From Planctomycetota bacterium (lineage in GTDB: Bacteria > Planctomycetota > UBA8108 > UBA1146 > JAKEFC01), in assembly GCA_022616235.1 (NCBI GenBank), contig JAKEFC010000157.1, forward strand, positions 1 through 34,019: 34,019 nt of DNA, read 5' to 3'. Positions 11,389-27,552 of the stretch are shown in pieces; positions within the stretch are counted from its first letter, which is position 1, and the number at the start of each line of letters is the position of its first letter. The position numbers and the translations under genes were made by a program. The notes under the pieces are model-generated. The model worked only from the letters and a program-made list of their open reading frames with translations. It had not been told where the DNA came from and did no database searches.

Positions 11389-12360
11389 TCAATGCTCTTT
11401 TTCGAGCGCGGCGAGATCCTTCTCCATGCGCTCGCGCAGCACTTTGTGGACGGGGCGCGCTTCCTTCGTCCGCTCCGCGAATGCCGCCAGCACGGCGGCG
11501 GCTCCGTCCTTGTTGCGCTCCGCAACCGCGCCATCGAATGCCATCGTCCAATAGGCCGTGAACAGTGCATCCGCGGGATCGTCGATCACCACCCCATCCG
11601 CGAACACGGCGTACATGAGCTTCGCGCACTCCTTGCGCCGCCCCGCCGTCGGCACCTTCTCGTATTCGTTCATCACGTCGATCACGGGCTTCTTGGCCCG
11701 ATACTTTTGGAAGTGCTTCACGAGACGCTCATCCGCGCCCGCGGTAGTTGCCGCAGCCTCCAACTCCGCGATCGGCGGAAACCTGCGCTCGAGGAATAGA
11801 TCGAGGAGCAGAACGTTCGCGTTCTTCAGCGCGTTCGCGGGGTCTTTCTCCGCGGCGCGATAGATGTCGAACGCCCACTTCGCCCGCTCCAAGTCCGCGG
11901 GGAACTCGTCTTGCTCGCCCCGCGTCAAGTTGCCGCTCGTCAGGACTCGCCCTTTGTGGTCGAGGAACACGACGGAAGGATGCCCGACCCCGACTCCCAG
12001 CGTGCCCAAGAGGCCCTCGTCCGGAACCTCGGGCAGGAGCGACTGGATGTTCAAGTACGGGACGAACTGCTTGCTGACATCGACCCACCAATCCGAGACG
12101 AGGGGCCCGCCCTCGACGCCGCTGCAGCGCGGTCAGGCACTGTAGCTGCGCGTGAAGTACCCGACGATGGGGCGTTCCGTCGCGAGCGATTTCGCCATCG
12201 CGTCGGTCATCTTGCGTTCCCACGCGATCTTCGTGACGAAGGGCTCCCCCATCTTCCGCTGGTATTTTTGCGTAAGAACCTCGCGGTTCTGATCTTCCGC
12301 GGAAAGGAGGACGGGGGTCGCGATGCCGCACGCGAAGGCCAGGATCCACCATCTGAACAC
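11389..12360 (-). CDS. Exported thioredoxin-fold selenoprotein with a UxxC redox motif (Sec76)
   Basis: GTG at 12360 is preceded by AAGGAG at eight bases. A signal peptide (FRWWILAFACGIATPVLLSA) leads into VGYFTRSYSA, then TGA at 12135-12133, then PRCSGVEGGPL in the same frame, on to a TGA stop at 11389. Reading the first TGA as Sec gives 323 residues with Sec76-Pro-Arg-Cys79 after a beta-strand, exactly where thioredoxins carry CxxC. The fold's cis-proline strand follows as GHPSVVFLDHKGRVL (Pro128). The rest is a helical C-terminal region of about 180 residues unlike thioredoxin. A candidate SECIS lies just after the UGA. By fold it should be a thiol/selenol oxidoreductase or peroxide reductase outside the cytoplasm; the substrate is unknown. 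The membrane protein gene 63 bases upstream may be its partner. If ended at the UGA, both halves lose the active site. Confidence 0.85.
12099..12135 (-). promoter_or_regulatory. Sec UGA codon (12133-12135) with candidate bacterial SECIS hairpin
   Basis: After UGA there are 17 nt, then a perfect six-pair stem CGAGGG/CCCUCG with loop CGGGC (12099-12115). The loop begins 23 nt from UGA and has G in position 2. The hairpin sits inside the coding sequence, as bacterial SECIS elements must. Confidence 0.65.
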
Positions 12361-12423
12361 GTCGTTCGCTCCTTAACGGTAAAGGCGGTCGAGACTCTTC
12401 CTAGGAGCGCCGACCGCAATGCA

Positions 12424-13011
12424 CTACGCGGCGGCGGCGGGCCACAGCCAACCGAAGACGGCGCCCGTCGCGAGCCCGTAGAGGACTCCATCGAAGATGA
12501 ACTTCGCCGTGATCCCCCAGCTCACGCCTTTCCAAATCGAATCGCACACGTTGCTCAGCGCGTAGCCGAGGACAGCGGCCGCGCCCGTGAATCGAAACAC
12601 CGCCATGAAATCGGCGCCGCGCGCGAGCCCGAGGCCGGCGATGTAGGCGACGAATACGCCGATGACGACCGAATAGACAAACCACTGCAACAGCGATTTT
12701 CCCATCGAGAAGGGGCCGCTCGGCAGCACGGTCATGTTGCCGACGGGACCTTGGTTCATCTTCGCGGTCATCTCCGGCGTACACATCTCCTTCATGGACC
12801 CTGCGCACGGGAACATGTAACTGCCGGGCTGCACACCTTGGGTGCGCATCGCTTCCAGGACCGCCGCCTCTCCGGGAAGCTTCTTGAAGTCGCCGCGGTG
12901 GATCGGGAGCACCATGTGGATGATGGAGCTGACGACGAACACCGCGACTGCGGCCGCGATGATTGGAATCCAGAGGTCGACAAGAGGGACGCTCGCCACA
13001 AAGGAAACCAT
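12424..13011 (-). CDS. Conserved hypothetical four-helix membrane protein
   Basis: 195 residues from ATG at 13011, with GGAGAGG eight bases upstream. Four likely membrane helices: residues about 12-36, 103-128, 133-158 and 170-190. Between the first and second is a loop of about 65 residues with IHRGDFKKLPGE, then PGSYMFPC (Cys69) and SMKEMC (Cys77), then GPFSMGKSL. I recognise the overall pattern (VSSIIHMVLP, SMKEM, FGWLWP end) as a widespread unnamed family, but no function is known to me. The two loop cysteines eight residues apart could be a redox pair. The gene for the exported thioredoxin-like selenoprotein follows 63 bases downstream on the same strand, so the two are probably co-transcribed. 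Confidence 0.8.
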   Translation of the reverse strand: MVSFVASVPLVDLWIPIIAAAVAVFVVSSIIHMVLPIHRGDFKKLPGEAAVLEAMRTQGVQPGSYMFPCAGSMKEMCTPEMTAKMNQGPVGNMTVLPSGPFSMGKSLLQWFVYSVVIGVFVAYIAGLGLARGADFMAVFRFTGAAAVLGYALSNVCDSIWKGVSWGITAKFIFDGVLYGLATGAVFGWLWPAAAA

Positions 13012-13381
13012 GACGCCTGCCTCTCCATGCGATTTGACCATGAGGCGCGATTCGAAGCGACCAACCGGCGCAGGTCGCGGTTCGAGGCACGCCCGTAGTA
13101 TGAAACCTACCGCTTTCGTGCCGGGCGCGGGCGTCGGCCCTGCGGCCCGGGAGGGGACTAGAGTAATGGAAACTCGAAGCGATTTCCCGTCCAGCCTCAA
13201 GTCATTGTCGGGCGCAGTTCCCGACCAATCGCCGGGGCGGCAGGGGCCGGCGCTCGTGTAGGGCTCAAGGGGAGGCCGCCAAGGTGCCGATAATTCGCAT
13301 TGCCAACGCGCGTCGCGACGTGCGCTGGGAGCGCGCGAATTCGACGACTCATCGCCAGGATTGGACAAGCGAGGCACGCCA
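13012..13381. other. Intergenic region between divergent genes, no gene seen
   Basis: 370 bases between the minus-strand membrane protein and the plus-strand methyltransferase. Divergent promoters must lie here. I see no convincing small gene, hairpin or promoter consensus. Confidence 0.6.
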
Positions 13382-13981
13382 GTGATCACGCTCCATGCGG
13401 ACGGCCGGACGGATGGGAGCTTTCCGGAGGAATTCTCGTATTGTCACGGCTGGAATCCTCTTACGCGTGCGGTGCTGCCGTGCACGCGCTACCTGCGGGC
13501 TCGTAACGCAGCGTATTACCTCGGTGACCGCGTGGAACGCCACCTCGACATCGGCTGCGGCGACGGCTACTTCCTGAAGCGATCGCCGGCGCGGGAGCGC
13601 TGCGGCCTCGATGCGCTCATCGGGGACAGCCTGCAAGATCTCGACCGGATTCCCGCAGGACACTTCGACCGCGTGACGATGCTCGCCGTCGTCGAGCACC
13701 TCGAGGATCCGACGGCGCTCCTACGCCACGTCTGGCGCGTGATCGCGCCGAACGGCAAGCTGATCCTCACGACCCCGAAGCAAGCGGCGGACAAGTTCAT
13801 CCGCTGGTACGTGCCGAATATCGAAGAGGAGCACGAGCATTACTTCGATCGCGAGTCCTTGGAGCGGATCCTGGCGCCCGCCTTCGTTCTGACCGGCTAT
13901 CACACCTTTCTTCTGGGGCTGAACCAGGCGTTCTGCTTCGCGCCGAAGCCGTCGTTCGCCTCCGCTCTCTGCAACGCCTGA
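13382..13981 (+). CDS. Class I SAM-dependent methyltransferase
   Basis: 199 residues. GTG at 13382 has GAGG at suitable distance; a TTG at 13361 in the same frame has its purine run too close. Motif I is HLDIGCGDGYFL (SAM-binding Gly-rich loop), followed by an acidic motif near GLDALIGD, motif IV FDRVTMLAVVEHLEDP, and the post-motif APNGKLILTTPK. This is the Methyltransf_11/UbiE-like layout. Short for the family and cytoplasmic. The EHEHYFDRESL segment is typical for enzymes acting on lipids, sugars or small molecules, but the substrate is unknown. Confidence 0.85.
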   Translation: MITLHADGRTDGSFPEEFSYCHGWNPLTRAVLPCTRYLRARNAAYYLGDRVERHLDIGCGDGYFLKRSPARERCGLDALIGDSLQDLDRIPAGHFDRVTMLAVVEHLEDPTALLRHVWRVIAPNGKLILTTPKQAADKFIRWYVPNIEEEHEHYFDRESLERILAPAFVLTGYHTFLLGLNQAFCFAPKPSFASALCNA

Positions 13982-22446: not shown

Positions 22447-22700
22447 CGCAGGAGCCGCCGGTTCCCGCGAGCTTCGACGACCAGACACGAGGAGCGCATG
22501 GTATGGCACGAGGGTGGCGCCGGAGGGGCCGACGCGGGCGTTCGATGCACCGCGATCGGCGCCAATCCCCGCCGCTCCGAGTCGGCCATTTCGAGCGCTT
22601 CGCCGCGCGGCCTCCCCTCGCCGAAATCCCGTCGCCTAAGTAGAATCGAGAGACGGCCCACGGCGAGTGCTCTGCACATCGGCACGGAGAGGGATTTTGC
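22447..22700. other. Intergenic region before the formate dehydrogenase operon
   Basis: 254 bases between the hybrid kinase and the fdh operon. The operon promoter should be here. The ribosome site GGAGAGG is seen at about 22685-22692. I see no clear sigma-54 or sigma-70 promoter. Confidence 0.5.
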
Positions 22701-24653
22701 ATGGTTCAACAACGGAAGCCGCAGCGCGCTTATGCGCGCCTCACCCACCCCCTCGTTCGCGAGGGGGGAGCGCTTCGCCGCGCTTCGTGGGACGAGGCGC
22801 TGGACCGCGCCGCGGAGGGGTTCCGGCGCAACATCGCGGCGCGCGGGCCAAACGCGCTCGGAACGTTTAGCTGCTCGAAGTCCACCAACGAGGTGAACTA
22901 TCTCGCGCAGAAACTGAGCCGCGTCGCGTTCGGCACCCACAACATCGATAGCTGCAACCGCACCTGACACGCGCCCAGCGTCGTCGGGCTGGCGACGGTA
23001 TTCGGCGCGGGGGGCGGGACGAGTTCCTACCGCGAAGTGGAGGAGACGGACGTCATCTTCCTTTGGGGATCGAACGCCCGCGAGGCGCACCCGATCTGGT
23101 TCCACCACCTGCTGAAGGGCGTCCGGAACGGCGCGCGCCTCTACGTCATGGATCCGCGCCGCACCGCTTCCGCGCACTGGGCCGATGTCTGGATGGGTCT
23201 CGAAATCGGAAGCGACATTGCACTGTCGAACACGATGGCGCGCGAGATCATCCACGCTGGCCTCGCCCACAAGGACTTCATCGCGCGCGCGACCGAGGGC
23301 TTCGATGCCTACCGCGCTTCGGTCGAGTCCTACACGCTCGACCATGGCGAGCGCATCACCGGGATTCCGGCGGCGGCGATCCGCGAGGCCGCGCACGCGT
23401 TCGCGCGCGCCGACCGCGCCATGATCTGTTGGACGCTCGGCATCACGGAGCATCACACCGCGGTCGACAACGTGCTCGCGTTGATCAATCTCTGCCTCCT
23501 GACGGGGCACGTGGGGCGCTGGGGATGCGGCGCGAACCCGCTCCGCGGTCAGAACAACGTACAGGGCGGGGGCGACATGGGCGCCATTCCGAACCGGCTC
23601 CCCGGGTTTCAAGACATTCTCGATCCGGCGACACGCGGCCGCTTCGAGCGCCTCTGGGGCGTGACCCTCGAACCGCGCCACGGCAAGAATCTCTCCGAGA
23701 TGCTGCACGCGATCGAGCACGGAGAGATGACGTCTCTGTTCGTGATCGGCGAGAACCCGGCCCAGTCCGATGCCGACCAGCGCCGCGTGGAGCGCGGCCT
23801 CGCAGGCCTGGACAACCTCGTCGTTCAGGAGATCTTCCTCACGCGCACGGCGCAGCTCGCGCACGTCGTTTTGCCCGCCGCCGCCACCTGGTGCGAAGGC
23901 GAAGGGACCGTCACCAACAGCGAGCGTCGCGTGCAACGCATCAAGAAGACCGTGGACCCGCCTGGGGACGCGCGCGATGAGCTGTGGATCATCTCGGAGA
24001 TCGCGCGCCGCCTCGGCCGCGACTTCGGCCACCCGACCGCGGAAGATGTCTGGAACGAGTTCCGTACCGTCGCCCCTCATTTCGCGGGCGGCATGAGTTA
24101 CGCGCGCTTGGAAGCGCTCGGCGGGATCCAGTGGCCGTGTCCGGATGAGAGCCACCCCGGCTCGTTGTTTCTGCACGGGCGCCTCTGGGAAACGCCGCGC
24201 GGCGGGCGCGCCGCGCCGTTCTCGGTCGTCGCGCACGACCCGCCGGTGGAGCGGCCGGATGCCGAGTATCCGTTCGTACTCACGACGGGGCGCAGGCTCG
24301 AGTCGTACAACACCGGAGTCCAGACGGGGGGCTACGACTCGCCGCTCCACTTCGGCGAGTCGCTCGACCTCTCGCCGGAGGATGCGGAGCGCCTCGGCGT
24401 CGCGACCGGCGATGCGGTGCGCGTCACTTCGCGGCGCGGGAGCCTCGTCGCGCCCGCGCGCGTCGACCGCTGCCTGCGGGCGGGGATGGTCTTCATGACG
24501 CTTCACTTCCCCGATGAAGTGACGACCAATGTGCTCACGATCGACGCCGTCGATCCCAAGTCGGGCACCGCCGAATTCAAGGCCTGCGCCGTGCGCGTAG
24601 AGCGCGCCGCGGCGGCCGCGGAGACTCCGTTCGCCGGAGCGGGGCGGCGCTGA
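22701..24653 (+). CDS. fdhA: Formate dehydrogenase catalytic subunit, C-terminal/molybdenum part, selenocysteine at residue 89
   Basis: Reading through TGA at 22965-22967 as Sec gives 650 residues. The Sec is in SCNRT-U-HAPSVVGLA, equivalent to the Sec/Cys ligand of the molybdenum in formate dehydrogenases, with the catalytic His directly after. Later motifs are typical of the bis-MGD family: LLTGHVGRWGCGANPLRGQNN, VIGENPAQSD, LPAAATWCEGEGTVTNSERR, and a C-terminal MGD-binding domain with TTGRRLESYNTGVQT. The N-terminal [4Fe-4S] Cys motif is missing: the protein starts at the linker RLTHPLVREGGALRRASWDEAL. That motif is instead at the end of the third gene of the operon. It oxidises formate to CO2 (or the reverse) and passes electrons to the NuoEF-like subunit. 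Its stop and the next start share one base (TGATG). Confidence 0.93.
22965..22997 (+). promoter_or_regulatory. Sec UGA codon with bacterial SECIS hairpin of fdhA
   Basis: UGA is at 22965-22967. A seven-pair stem CGUCGUC/GGCGACG (22979-22997, one U-G pair) closes the loop GGGCU, which starts 18 nt after UGA. As I recall the E. coli fdhF element, its GGUCU loop also starts 18 nt after UGA, at the same two codons (Gly-Leu). Confidence 0.85.
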
Positions 24654-26554
24654 TGGACATCCGACTTCCGGAAGCGGAGCCGAGCGATGAGGAGCGCATC
24701 GCCATCGACGCTCTCCTCGGGCCGCCGGAGTCGGCGTGGGATGGCGGCAGCCGCGGGCGCAGCCGCGACTCGCACGTTTCCTACGGCGGACGCGCGGCGC
24801 GCGAGCGACGTCATTTGCTGCTCCCCGCGCTGCAAGCGCTGCAGGCGCGCGTCGGCTGGATCAGCGAAGGCGGCCTCGGCTACGTCTGCGCGCGCCTCAG
24901 CGTGCCGCCCGCAGATGCGTGGGGAGTCGCGACCTTTTATGCGCTCCTCGCCACGGAGCCGCGGCCGCGCCGCGTCGTTCACGTCTGCGATGACATCGCA
25001 TGCCGCGCACGCGGGGCGCGCGCGCTGACCGCGGCGATCGAGAGTGAGTGCGGCGCGCCGCTTCCTCACGCCGAAAACGGCGGCCACATCGCGCTCGACC
25101 GCGAGCGGCCGGCCTGGATGCGCTCGCCTTGCCTCGGCCTCTGCGACGCCGTGCCGGCCGCGCTCGTCACCGAGGCGGGAACGAGCCCGATCGAGCGGCA
25201 GCTTGGCAACGTCACGATCGGCCTGGTGCGGTCCCTTCTCGCGGGAGCGGCTCCGCCGAAGACCGATGGCGCTGCGGAAGCCATGGTGCCGCAGCGCGGC
25301 GACCCGGCGCTCAGGCTCCTCGCGCGCGCGGGCAGCGTCGATCCGACGCGGCTCGATGCGTACCGCGCCGCCGGCGGCGGCAAGGCGCTCGCGCGCGCGC
25401 TCGAGTTGGGGCCGGAACGAGTGATCGCCGAGGTCGTCGAGTCGAAGCTCGTCGGTCGCGGCGGGGCCGCATTCCCCACGGGGCGCAAGTGGGATGCGGT
25501 GCGTCGCCAGCCGGCGACGCCGCACTATCTCATCTGCAACGCCGACGAATCGGAGCCGGGCACGTTCAAGGACCGCGTGCTCCTGACCCACGATCCGTTC
25601 GCGGTCGTCGAATCGATGGCGATCGCCGGGTTCGCGACCGGGTGCGAGAAGGGGTACCTCTACTTGCGCGCGGAGTACCCTCTCGCGCATGAGCGGATCG
25701 GGAACGCGCTGTCGCAGATGCGGCGCGCTGGGATGCTGGGCGAGAACATCCTGGGGCGAGGCGTACGGTTCGACATCGAGATCCGGCGCGGCGCCGGCGC
25801 CTACATCTGCGGCGAGGAGACTGCGATCTTCGAGTCGATCGAAGGAAAGCGCGGCGAGCCGCGGAACAAGCCTCCGTATCCCGTGCAACACGGACTCTTC
25901 GGGAAGCCCACGGTCGTGAACAACGTCGAGACGCTCGCGAATATCCCCCGCATCGTGCTCGAGGGCGGCGCCGCATTCGCGCGCACGGGAACGGCGCAGT
26001 CGACCGGCACGCGCCTCTTCTGTCTGAGCGGAAACGTCGCTCGTCCGGGCGTCTACGAGGTCGCTTGCGGCACTACGCTCGGCGCATTGCTCGAGTTGGC
26101 GGGGGGCGTCCCCAACGGAAGACGGCTCGCGGCGATCTTGCTCGGCGGCGCGGCCGGCGCTTTCGTGCGGCCGGATGAACTCGGACTGCGGCTCACGCAC
26201 GAAGACACGCGCGCCGCCGGCGTCACGCTCGGATCCGGCGTGGTCATGGTCTTCGACGAGACGGTCGACTTGCACGACGCGGTGCTCCGCATCGCGGCGT
26301 TCTTTCGCGACGAGTCGTGCGGCCAGTGCGTCCCTTGCCGGGTCGGCACGGTGCGCCAGGAGGAGGCACTGCATCGAATCGCGGGGGGCTGCGCGCGGGG
26401 CGGGGTCGCGGCGGAGCTGGCGCTGATCGATGAGATCGGCGTCGCGATGCGCGACGGCTCCATCTGCGGGCTCGGCCAAACAGCGTATGCGGCGGTCGAG
26501 TCCGCGGTGAAGCGCTTGCGCTTGTTCCCGACCGCGGAAAGGAAGAAGTCGTGA
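24653..26554 (+). CDS. fdhB: NADH-side subunit of formate dehydrogenase: NuoE-NuoF fusion
   Basis: 633 residues. Residues about 50-200 are a NuoE-like thioredoxin-fold [2Fe-2S] domain with Cys112-x4-Cys117 and Cys160-x3-Cys164. The rest is NuoF-like: GRGGAAFPTGRKW and CNADESEPGTFKDR for FMN/NADH binding, GAGAYICGEETAIFESIEG, and the [4Fe-4S] ligands Cys556, Cys559, Cys562 and Cys605. It transfers electrons between formate oxidation and NAD+ (FMN site). A NuoE-NuoF fusion is also known in some soluble FDH and hydrogenase diaphorases. The first 50 residues are variable. Start and stop codons overlap both neighbours, so the operon is translationally coupled. Confidence 0.94.
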   Translation: MDIRLPEAEPSDEERIAIDALLGPPESAWDGGSRGRSRDSHVSYGGRAARERRHLLLPALQALQARVGWISEGGLGYVCARLSVPPADAWGVATFYALLATEPRPRRVVHVCDDIACRARGARALTAAIESECGAPLPHAENGGHIALDRERPAWMRSPCLGLCDAVPAALVTEAGTSPIERQLGNVTIGLVRSLLAGAAPPKTDGAAEAMVPQRGDPALRLLARAGSVDPTRLDAYRAAGGGKALARALELGPERVIAEVVESKLVGRGGAAFPTGRKWDAVRRQPATPHYLICNADESEPGTFKDRVLLTHDPFAVVESMAIAGFATGCEKGYLYLRAEYPLAHERIGNALSQMRRAGMLGENILGRGVRFDIEIRRGAGAYICGEETAIFESIEGKRGEPRNKPPYPVQHGLFGKPTVVNNVETLANIPRIVLEGGAAFARTGTAQSTGTRLFCLSGNVARPGVYEVACGTTLGALLELAGGVPNGRRLAAILLGGAAGAFVRPDELGLRLTHEDTRAAGVTLGSGVVMVFDETVDLHDAVLRIAAFFRDESCGQCVPCRVGTVRQEEALHRIAGGCARGGVAAELALIDEIGVAMRDGSICGLGQTAYAAVESAVKRLRLFPTAERKKS

Positions 26555-27552
26555 ACCCGCAGATGGCGCCGAGCAGGAAGGGCGAGTCCGAGCCGCGTCG
26601 CGCGTCCGCGCGCCCCGCGGTGGAGCTGGCCATCGACGGCCGCACGGTGAGCGTTCCGGAGGGAACCACCATCCTCGGCGCCTGCCGGGGCATCGGGATC
26701 GAGATTCCCACGCTCTGCTATCTCGAGACGTTGCGTCCGGTGAACGTCTGCCGCCTCTGCATGGTCGAGGTGGATGGCTCGCGCGTACTCGTACCGAGCT
26801 GCTCGCGGCCGGTGGAGGCGGGAATGAAGGTGCACACCGGCACGGAGCGCGTGCGGCACACGCGTAAGCTCGTGCTCGAGCTGCTCGCGTCATCGGTCGA
26901 TCTCTCCACGACGCCCGGGATCGATGCGTTGCTCCAGGAATACGGCTGCCGGCCGGAGCGCTTCGGTCCCAGAGCGGCGGCCGCGGACGCGGGCGTCCGC
27001 GACGGTGCGGTCGCGGGACACCACGAGCCGCCGGATCCGCGCACTGCGGCGACCGTCGCGCAGCCGGTCAAGGTCGACAACGACCTCTACGTGCGCGACT
27101 ACGGCAAGTGCATCCTCTGCTACAAGTGCGTGGAAGCCTGCGGCCCGGACCATCAGAACACGTTCGCCATCGCCGTCGCGGGGCGCGGCTTCGAAGCGCG
27201 CATCTCGACGGAAATGGCCGTGACGCTTCCCGATTCCGCGTGCGTCTACTGCGGCAACTGCATCGCGGTCTGTCCGACGGGCGCCCTCATGGTGCGGAGC
27301 GAATTCGACATGCGCGCAGCGGGCACTTGGGACGAGGCGCGGCAGACGAAGACCGACACGATCTGCCCCTATTGCGGCGTCGGCTGCACCTTGACCCTGC
27401 ACGTGCAAGACGGCCAGATCGTGAAGGCAAGCTCGCCGCTCGCGAACGACATCACGCGCGGCAACCTCTGCATCAAGGGGCGCTTCGGCTGGCGCTTCGT
27501 CCAGCCGCGCGAAAGGGACGGCCGAGCGCGGGAGGGCGATGCCTGCGCCTGA
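26551..27552 (+). CDS. Formate dehydrogenase iron-sulfur subunit: NuoG-like N-terminal part plus the detached [4Fe-4S] motif of FdhA
   Basis: 333 residues; GTG at 26551 overlaps the previous stop by four bases (GTGA); ATG at 26563 is an alternative. A [2Fe-2S] ferredoxin domain comes first (Cys56, Cys67, Cys70, Cys84). The His/Cys3 cluster of NuoG-type proteins is absent: HTRKLVLELLAS leads straight into SVDLSTTPGID. Two [4Fe-4S] motifs follow (Cys187, 190, 193, 197 and Cys231, 234, 237, 241). The end has CPYCGVGC (Cys272, 275, 279) and GNLCIKG (Cys307), the cluster that normally opens the molybdenum domain of FdhA. The chain stops right after GRFGWRFVQ, where a one-piece FdhA would continue with the sequence now starting the first gene. 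It must assemble with FdhA to complete the active site wiring. Confidence 0.9.
   Translation: MNPQMAPSRKGESEPRRASARPAVELAIDGRTVSVPEGTTILGACRGIGIEIPTLCYLETLRPVNVCRLCMVEVDGSRVLVPSCSRPVEAGMKVHTGTERVRHTRKLVLELLASSVDLSTTPGIDALLQEYGCRPERFGPRAAAADAGVRDGAVAGHHEPPDPRTAATVAQPVKVDNDLYVRDYGKCILCYKCVEACGPDHQNTFAIAVAGRGFEARISTEMAVTLPDSACVYCGNCIAVCPTGALMVRSEFDMRAAGTWDEARQTKTDTICPYCGVGCTLTLHVQDGQIVKASSPLANDITRGNLCIKGRFGWRFVQPRERDGRAREGDACA

Follow-up and report, generated by a model that had tools for sequence, protein, structure and literature searches.

The window (the whole stretch of 34,019 nucleotides that was analysed) contains, on its minus strand, a gene in which a single TGA (12135-12133) joins two open segments of the same frame, 12360-12136 and 12132-11389. 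The gene starts with GTG at 12360, preceded about 8 bases on its 5' side by an AAGGAG-like ribosome site recognized by reading the sequence, and its final stop is a TGA at 11391-11389. The features of this gene, and of a second TGA-containing gene of the window, are:

11389..12360, minus strand: whole gene of a predicted exported thioredoxin-fold selenoprotein of 323 residues (translation with TGA=U, 60-member family alignment, AlphaFold model of the read-through protein)
12366..12376 (approximate), minus strand: probable ribosome-binding site, ttAAGGAGcgaacgacGTG (sequence reading)
12298..12360, minus strand: predicted N-terminal signal peptide, residues 1-21, VFRWWILAFACGIATPVLLSA, followed by ED (composition read directly)
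12133..12135, minus strand: in-frame TGA, codon 76, most probably read as Sec, the first residue of U-P-R-C (homologue column and motif counts)
12124..12126, minus strand: Cys79, putative resolving Cys of UxxC (Cys in 58 of 60 homologues)
12099..12115, minus strand: candidate bacterial-type SECIS hairpin, CGAGGG-CGGGC-CCCTCG (fits the published bSECIS model)
11977..11979, minus strand: Pro128, thioredoxin cis-Pro position (same residue in 60 of 60 homologues)
11392..11931, minus strand: predicted all-helical C-terminal domain, approximately residues 144-323 (AlphaFold model)
22650..24653, plus strand: catalytic part of formate dehydrogenase alpha, with TGA at 22965-22967, NIDSCNRT-U-HAPSV (TIGR01591, 672.8 bits; cutoff 666.25)

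The active-site residues 76-79 of the protein are U-P-R-C, within the local motif SAUPRC. An earlier note on this DNA had described the two segments joined by one TGA, a signal peptide before it and, after it, Pro-Arg-Cys and a thioredoxin Pro128, the TGA lying where the first Cys of CxxC is expected. The coordinates proved exact to the base, the composition of residues 1-21, read directly, resembles that of a signal peptide, and a similar hydrophobic N-terminus is present in most of the aligned homologues. A promoter scan found none, and an Rfam search of the window at gathering thresholds returned no RNA families. The gene located upstream (12424-13389, minus strand) is predicted to encode a small membrane protein, for which no Pfam match was obtained.

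The read-through protein was used to search 98 related genomes. Matches were found in 36 of these, most of them containing exactly one internal TGA, and 60 family members were extracted. At column 76 there is a TGA in 53 homologues, Cys in four (CPPC in L046, CAPC in L053, CGFC in L059 and CPVS in L049) and W, L or S in three degenerate ones, which agrees with the placement of the TGA at the first Cys of a CxxC site. The homologues run past the TGA, with Cys79 retained as listed above and Glu83, Pro128 and Gly137 each identical in all 60, and the family motif is YFTRSY[AS]PU[PG]PC..[LM]EGGPL.

The dN/dS ratio on the 3' side of the TGA is 0.03-0.27 (16 homologue pairs), i.e. this part is under purifying selection, which strongly suggests that it is translated and functional. 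Standard gene prediction would terminate the gene at the TGA, after residue 75, as the earlier note had foreseen; the reading that this favours, in which the TGA is a true stop, the product a 75-residue secreted peptide (or the gene a pseudogene) and the downstream frame open by chance, is nevertheless highly improbable in view of this selection, the conservation of the 60 homologues beyond the TGA, the replacement of the TGA by Cys in some of them, and the SECIS excess and full Sec machinery described below.

The hairpin of the window gene has a folding energy of -11.3 kcal/mol and an apical loop (CGGGC) located 23 nt 3' of the TGA. The published bSECIS model (PMC13188914) specifies an apical loop 16-37 nt after the UGA, G in the first two loop positions, a stem of 4-16 bp and MFE <= -7.5. 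Folded by itself, the window hairpin does not differ significantly from shuffled versions of this GC-rich sequence (z = +1.37), and the synonymous-recoding test on this single gene is weak, as 21% of recodings are equally stable. The proposal of a SECIS element is therefore based on the whole family: 47 of the 53 TGA copies pass the bSECIS model automatically, and a stem of 6 bp or more occurs in 51 of the 53, compared with 21% of synonymous recodings and just one of the seven copies without Sec. The typical hairpin of the family is short and G-rich, GGAGGGG-GGU-CCCCUCC, with the loop approximately 24 nt after the TGA; the folding energy averages -12.8 kcal/mol in the Sec copies vs -5.9 in other segments of the same genes.

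All four genes of Sec synthesis and insertion whose presence the earlier note had left to be checked were found in the genome. These encode (i) SelB (337.9 bits; cutoff 242), (ii) a tRNA-Sec with a UCA anticodon (selC), (iii) SelA, whose gene is divided between the ends of two contigs, and (iv) SelD, which carries its own Sec (CAGUASK, UxxK). Contig C163 holds selD and selC together, with the 3' part of selA. The canonical Sec formate dehydrogenase encoded in the window provides independent evidence that UGA is read as Sec in this organism.

The formate dehydrogenase alpha gene appears to be in two parts. Its Sec-bearing catalytic portion (matching TIGR01591 from position 52) precedes a NuoE/F-like fusion, a NuoG-like ferredoxin protein and then fdhD; the NuoG-like protein (26551-27552, plus strand) carries at its end a fused sequence resembling the N-terminal 4Fe-4S segment (CPYCGVGC...). 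The arrangement may be a split gene order of an unusual kind or else a matter of assembly.

The distribution of the family follows that of the decoding machinery: in the 98 relatives, a family member is present in 35 of the 73 genomes with selB over the cutoff vs one of the 25 without it (Fisher p = 3e-5, not corrected for kinship). The assembly of the exceptional genome (G016) has a completeness of about 90%, and the lack of selB there could simply be due to a gap. Translation of the UGA as Trp or some other amino acid, by an altered code or read-through, would suit the TGG (Trp) codon at the Sec position of one degenerate homologue (L009), but has hardly any probability, since TGA ends other genes of the window, Cys is the substituting residue in active homologues, the cognate tRNA-Sec(UCA) and SelB are present, and the family is nearly confined to relatives with selB. 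The family evidence rules out both the pseudogene and the altered-code readings, and the window gene is almost certainly, as judged from sequence data, a genuine selenoprotein gene with Sec at codon 76.

Three TGA-bearing copies of the family are present in the genome of the window: the window gene itself, one on contig C176 (UPNC), whose product is 53% identical to the window protein, and one on contig C262 (UPPC). A degenerate paralogue (L009:1501-2523, minus strand, G000:C66) retains a full open frame, with WPPS replacing UPxC and TGG at the Sec position; lacking both redox residues, it is likely to be a non-redox copy. An arginase-like gene lies 3' of the C176 copy (L008:926-1888, plus strand, G000:C176), as it does in several relatives of the same order, e.g. 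L079, so that the C176 copy possibly represents the positional orthologue, with the window gene as a duplicate. In L031 and L037 two family members occur in tandem, each with its own TGA. The neighbouring genes of the related loci are common only to close relatives (such as the arginase beside one orthologue group) and none is conserved; genomic context therefore yields no function.

A wider scan covered one genome per species in 84,980 species, using a pattern that permitted any residue at the Sec position and was thus unbiased towards Sec. It revealed 98 related loci, of which 80 were kept, nearly all from records labelled Planctomycetota; the motifs in the kept loci were 78 UxxC vs 3 CxxC. 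Two records labelled Proteobacteria (JAFMMO, L092) and Bacillota (QNYK, L102) match genomes G006 and G009, which belong to the same order as the genome of the window, so the labels given by the submitters look wrong. Two subfamilies are well supported in the family tree; Sec predominates in each, and the non-Sec members are scattered (6 changes). This suggests that Sec is ancient in the family and that the Cys forms are secondary.

The fold of the full read-through protein was predicted with AlphaFold on a 47-member alignment (mean pLDDT 93.2, pTM 0.85), and the model is in keeping with the thioredoxin fold and the 180-residue helical C-terminal domain that the earlier note had proposed. The predicted thioredoxin domain extends to approximately residue 143, with strands at 65-71, 100-106, 129-133 and 139-143, and is followed by eight helices (150-172, 177-189, 197-204, 211-234, 239-254, 267-280, 284-297 and 303-321). 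The beta-alpha-beta core, the CxxC-type site and the cis-Pro position of a thioredoxin fold are all found in the model. The nearest folds of the thioredoxin domain identified with Foldseek are those of DsbH (2ju5), an ERp18-type protein (1sen), AGR2/3 and DsbD-gamma; matches to solved structures span this domain alone, and none covers the whole protein (TM <=0.33). The window protein by itself gave no Pfam match, and a PDB sequence search gave none that was useful. Pfam Thioredoxin_7 (PF13899) is matched by 42 of the 47 family members at E <=0.1 (best 2.9e-10), and the fold assignment of the window protein is therefore based on its family members together with the model.

The only DsbD_TM protein found in the genome, the assembly of which is incomplete, is a DsbD (L159:436-2799, plus strand, G000:C193) whose C-terminal thioredoxin active site, FTGYT-U-VNC-RMMEE, contains a TGA in frame. 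Its gene and the window gene are not adjacent. Of 19 relatives examined, most proved to have the UxNC arrangement as well, and TGA-bearing matches are seen in many others. Among genomes with selB, the Sec form of DsbD co-occurs with the family (26/34 vs 13/39, p = 4e-4; kinship not corrected), its presence being scored from TGA-bearing matches, some of them weak. The Sec form of DsbD may already be covered by the row 'thiol:disulfide interchange protein' of the PMC13188914 catalogue.

The Sec of UxxC, the putative resolving Cys, the cis-Pro and the export signal together point to a selenol/thiol-disulfide oxidoreductase acting outside the cytoplasm, and we consider it very probable that the gene encodes an exported Sec-containing redox protein with a thioredoxin fold. 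In the mechanism that we propose, UGA codon 76 would be decoded by SelB and tRNA-Sec, aided by the SECIS hairpin just downstream, and the predicted signal peptide would export the product, for which we infer a periplasmic location and an enzymatic role. The protein would fold into a Thioredoxin_7/DsbH-type thioredoxin domain, with the U-P-x-C site and the cis-Pro, and then a helical domain of about 180 residues, which may bind substrates. Sec76 would attack disulfides of the substrate and Cys79 would resolve the selenenyl-sulfide; re-reduction would be carried out by a membrane donor, plausibly the DsbD of this genome with its C-terminal U-V-N-C site.

The presence of a Sec-DsbD in the same genome, its recurrence and its co-occurrence with the family favour a DsbD-fed extracytoplasmic reductase. 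The reductase nature of DsbH and DsbD is itself taken from relatives, and we give the DsbD-fed reductase role about an even chance. The main alternative, possible though somewhat doubtful, is an exported Sec-containing thioredoxin-fold protein with another role, which would oxidize or isomerize disulfides, reduce peroxides or oxidized thiols, or bind metal, the helical domain being chaperone-like or a scaffold. The activities of the fold neighbours (AGR2, ERp18, DsbH, DsbD-gamma and CnoX/YbbN) are indeed mixed, no conserved neighbouring gene fixes the function, and the WPPS paralogue suggests that some copies may be non-redox. Arguing against such a role are the UxxC and cis-Pro in nearly every copy of the family, the nearest family-model signals, which are those of the disulfide reductase DsbH and of DsbD, and the co-occurrence with Sec-DsbD.

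We tentatively suggest that Planctomycetota may possess a selenium electron relay across the inner membrane, in which a Sec-form DsbD (UxNC) would supply several exported proteins of this family; Sec would be ancestral and dominant, and the Cys forms rare secondary replacements.

This phylum-wide and often multi-copy selenoprotein family is truncated to about 75 residues by standard annotation. The deep-Sep paper (PMC12013277) states that methods seeking Cys/UGA pairs have a blind spot; as Cys forms are rare in the family, such methods would tend to overlook it. The family indicates that extracytoplasmic thiol chemistry depends on selenium in many Planctomycetota, and it provides a clear case in which to examine why Sec is retained at a site for which Cys is usually sufficient.

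Neither the window protein nor its paralogue attains the cutoff of any NCBIfam model (June 2026). Among the 119 prokaryotic selenoprotein families catalogued in 2026 (PMC13188914), none has the motif or the Planctomycetota distribution of this family, which is also absent from the deep-Sep list of new families (PMC12013277). Sec use and selenoprotein candidates in Planctomycetota have been reported in a study of Porphyra planctomycete genomes (PMC4807772), with candidates listed for two strains, and a member of the family may already be among these. With this reservation, the sequences define a large Planctomycetota family of predicted selenoproteins that is absent from both the 2026 catalogue and the NCBI family models.

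It is unlikely that the protein is a divergent member of a named selenoprotein family (VPGUxxT type 1 or 2, Trx7/PDZ, TsoB or DsbH). Family members do give weak profile matches to DsbH (36/47, best 5.5e-10), TsoB (22/47) and VPGUxxT-2 (17/47), but the scores are far below the cutoffs: the window protein reaches 14.9 bits vs 275 for VPGUxxT type 2 (NF041383) and has no match at E <=1 to DsbH (NF043050), for which the paralogue reaches 17.6 bits vs 190. The motif YFTRSYxPUPxC and the C-terminal domain both differ as well, and Trx7/PDZ has CxxU and TsoB UxxxxU (PMC13188914 catalogue). These scores and motifs led us to reject membership in all four.

VPGUxxT types 1 and 2 (NF041382, NF041383) are also thioredoxin-like selenoproteins, with weak local similarity near the N-terminal part, but their motif lacks a resolving Cys three residues on; the window protein has SAUPRC in its place. 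The Sec thioredoxins and Sec 'thiol:disulfide interchange' proteins of the catalogue (PF00085, PF13098; PMC13188914) share UxxC in a thioredoxin fold with the present proteins; these rows represent different families, for which no long helical C-terminal domain is described.

YbbN/CnoX (PDB 3qou, 3qdn), which gave the top Foldseek E-value, likewise carries an all-helical domain after its thioredoxin domain, but its overall fold is not matched (TM 0.23-0.24, rmsd approx. 19-20 over the whole length) and it contains no Sec. YbbN/CnoX is a cytoplasmic TPR chaperone. The best family-wide profile similarity is to DsbH (Chlamydia DsbH, PDB 2ju5) of the Thioredoxin_7 type, which is alike in its exported thioredoxin-fold domain and CxxC-type site and has a closely similar fold (TM 0.65 on the target); DsbH has Cys at the first position, where the present family has Sec, and the family adds the helical domain of about 180 residues. 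The family is a new one inside the known kind of thioredoxin-fold UxxC selenoproteins, and is unusual in having Sec as the norm and Cys only exceptionally.
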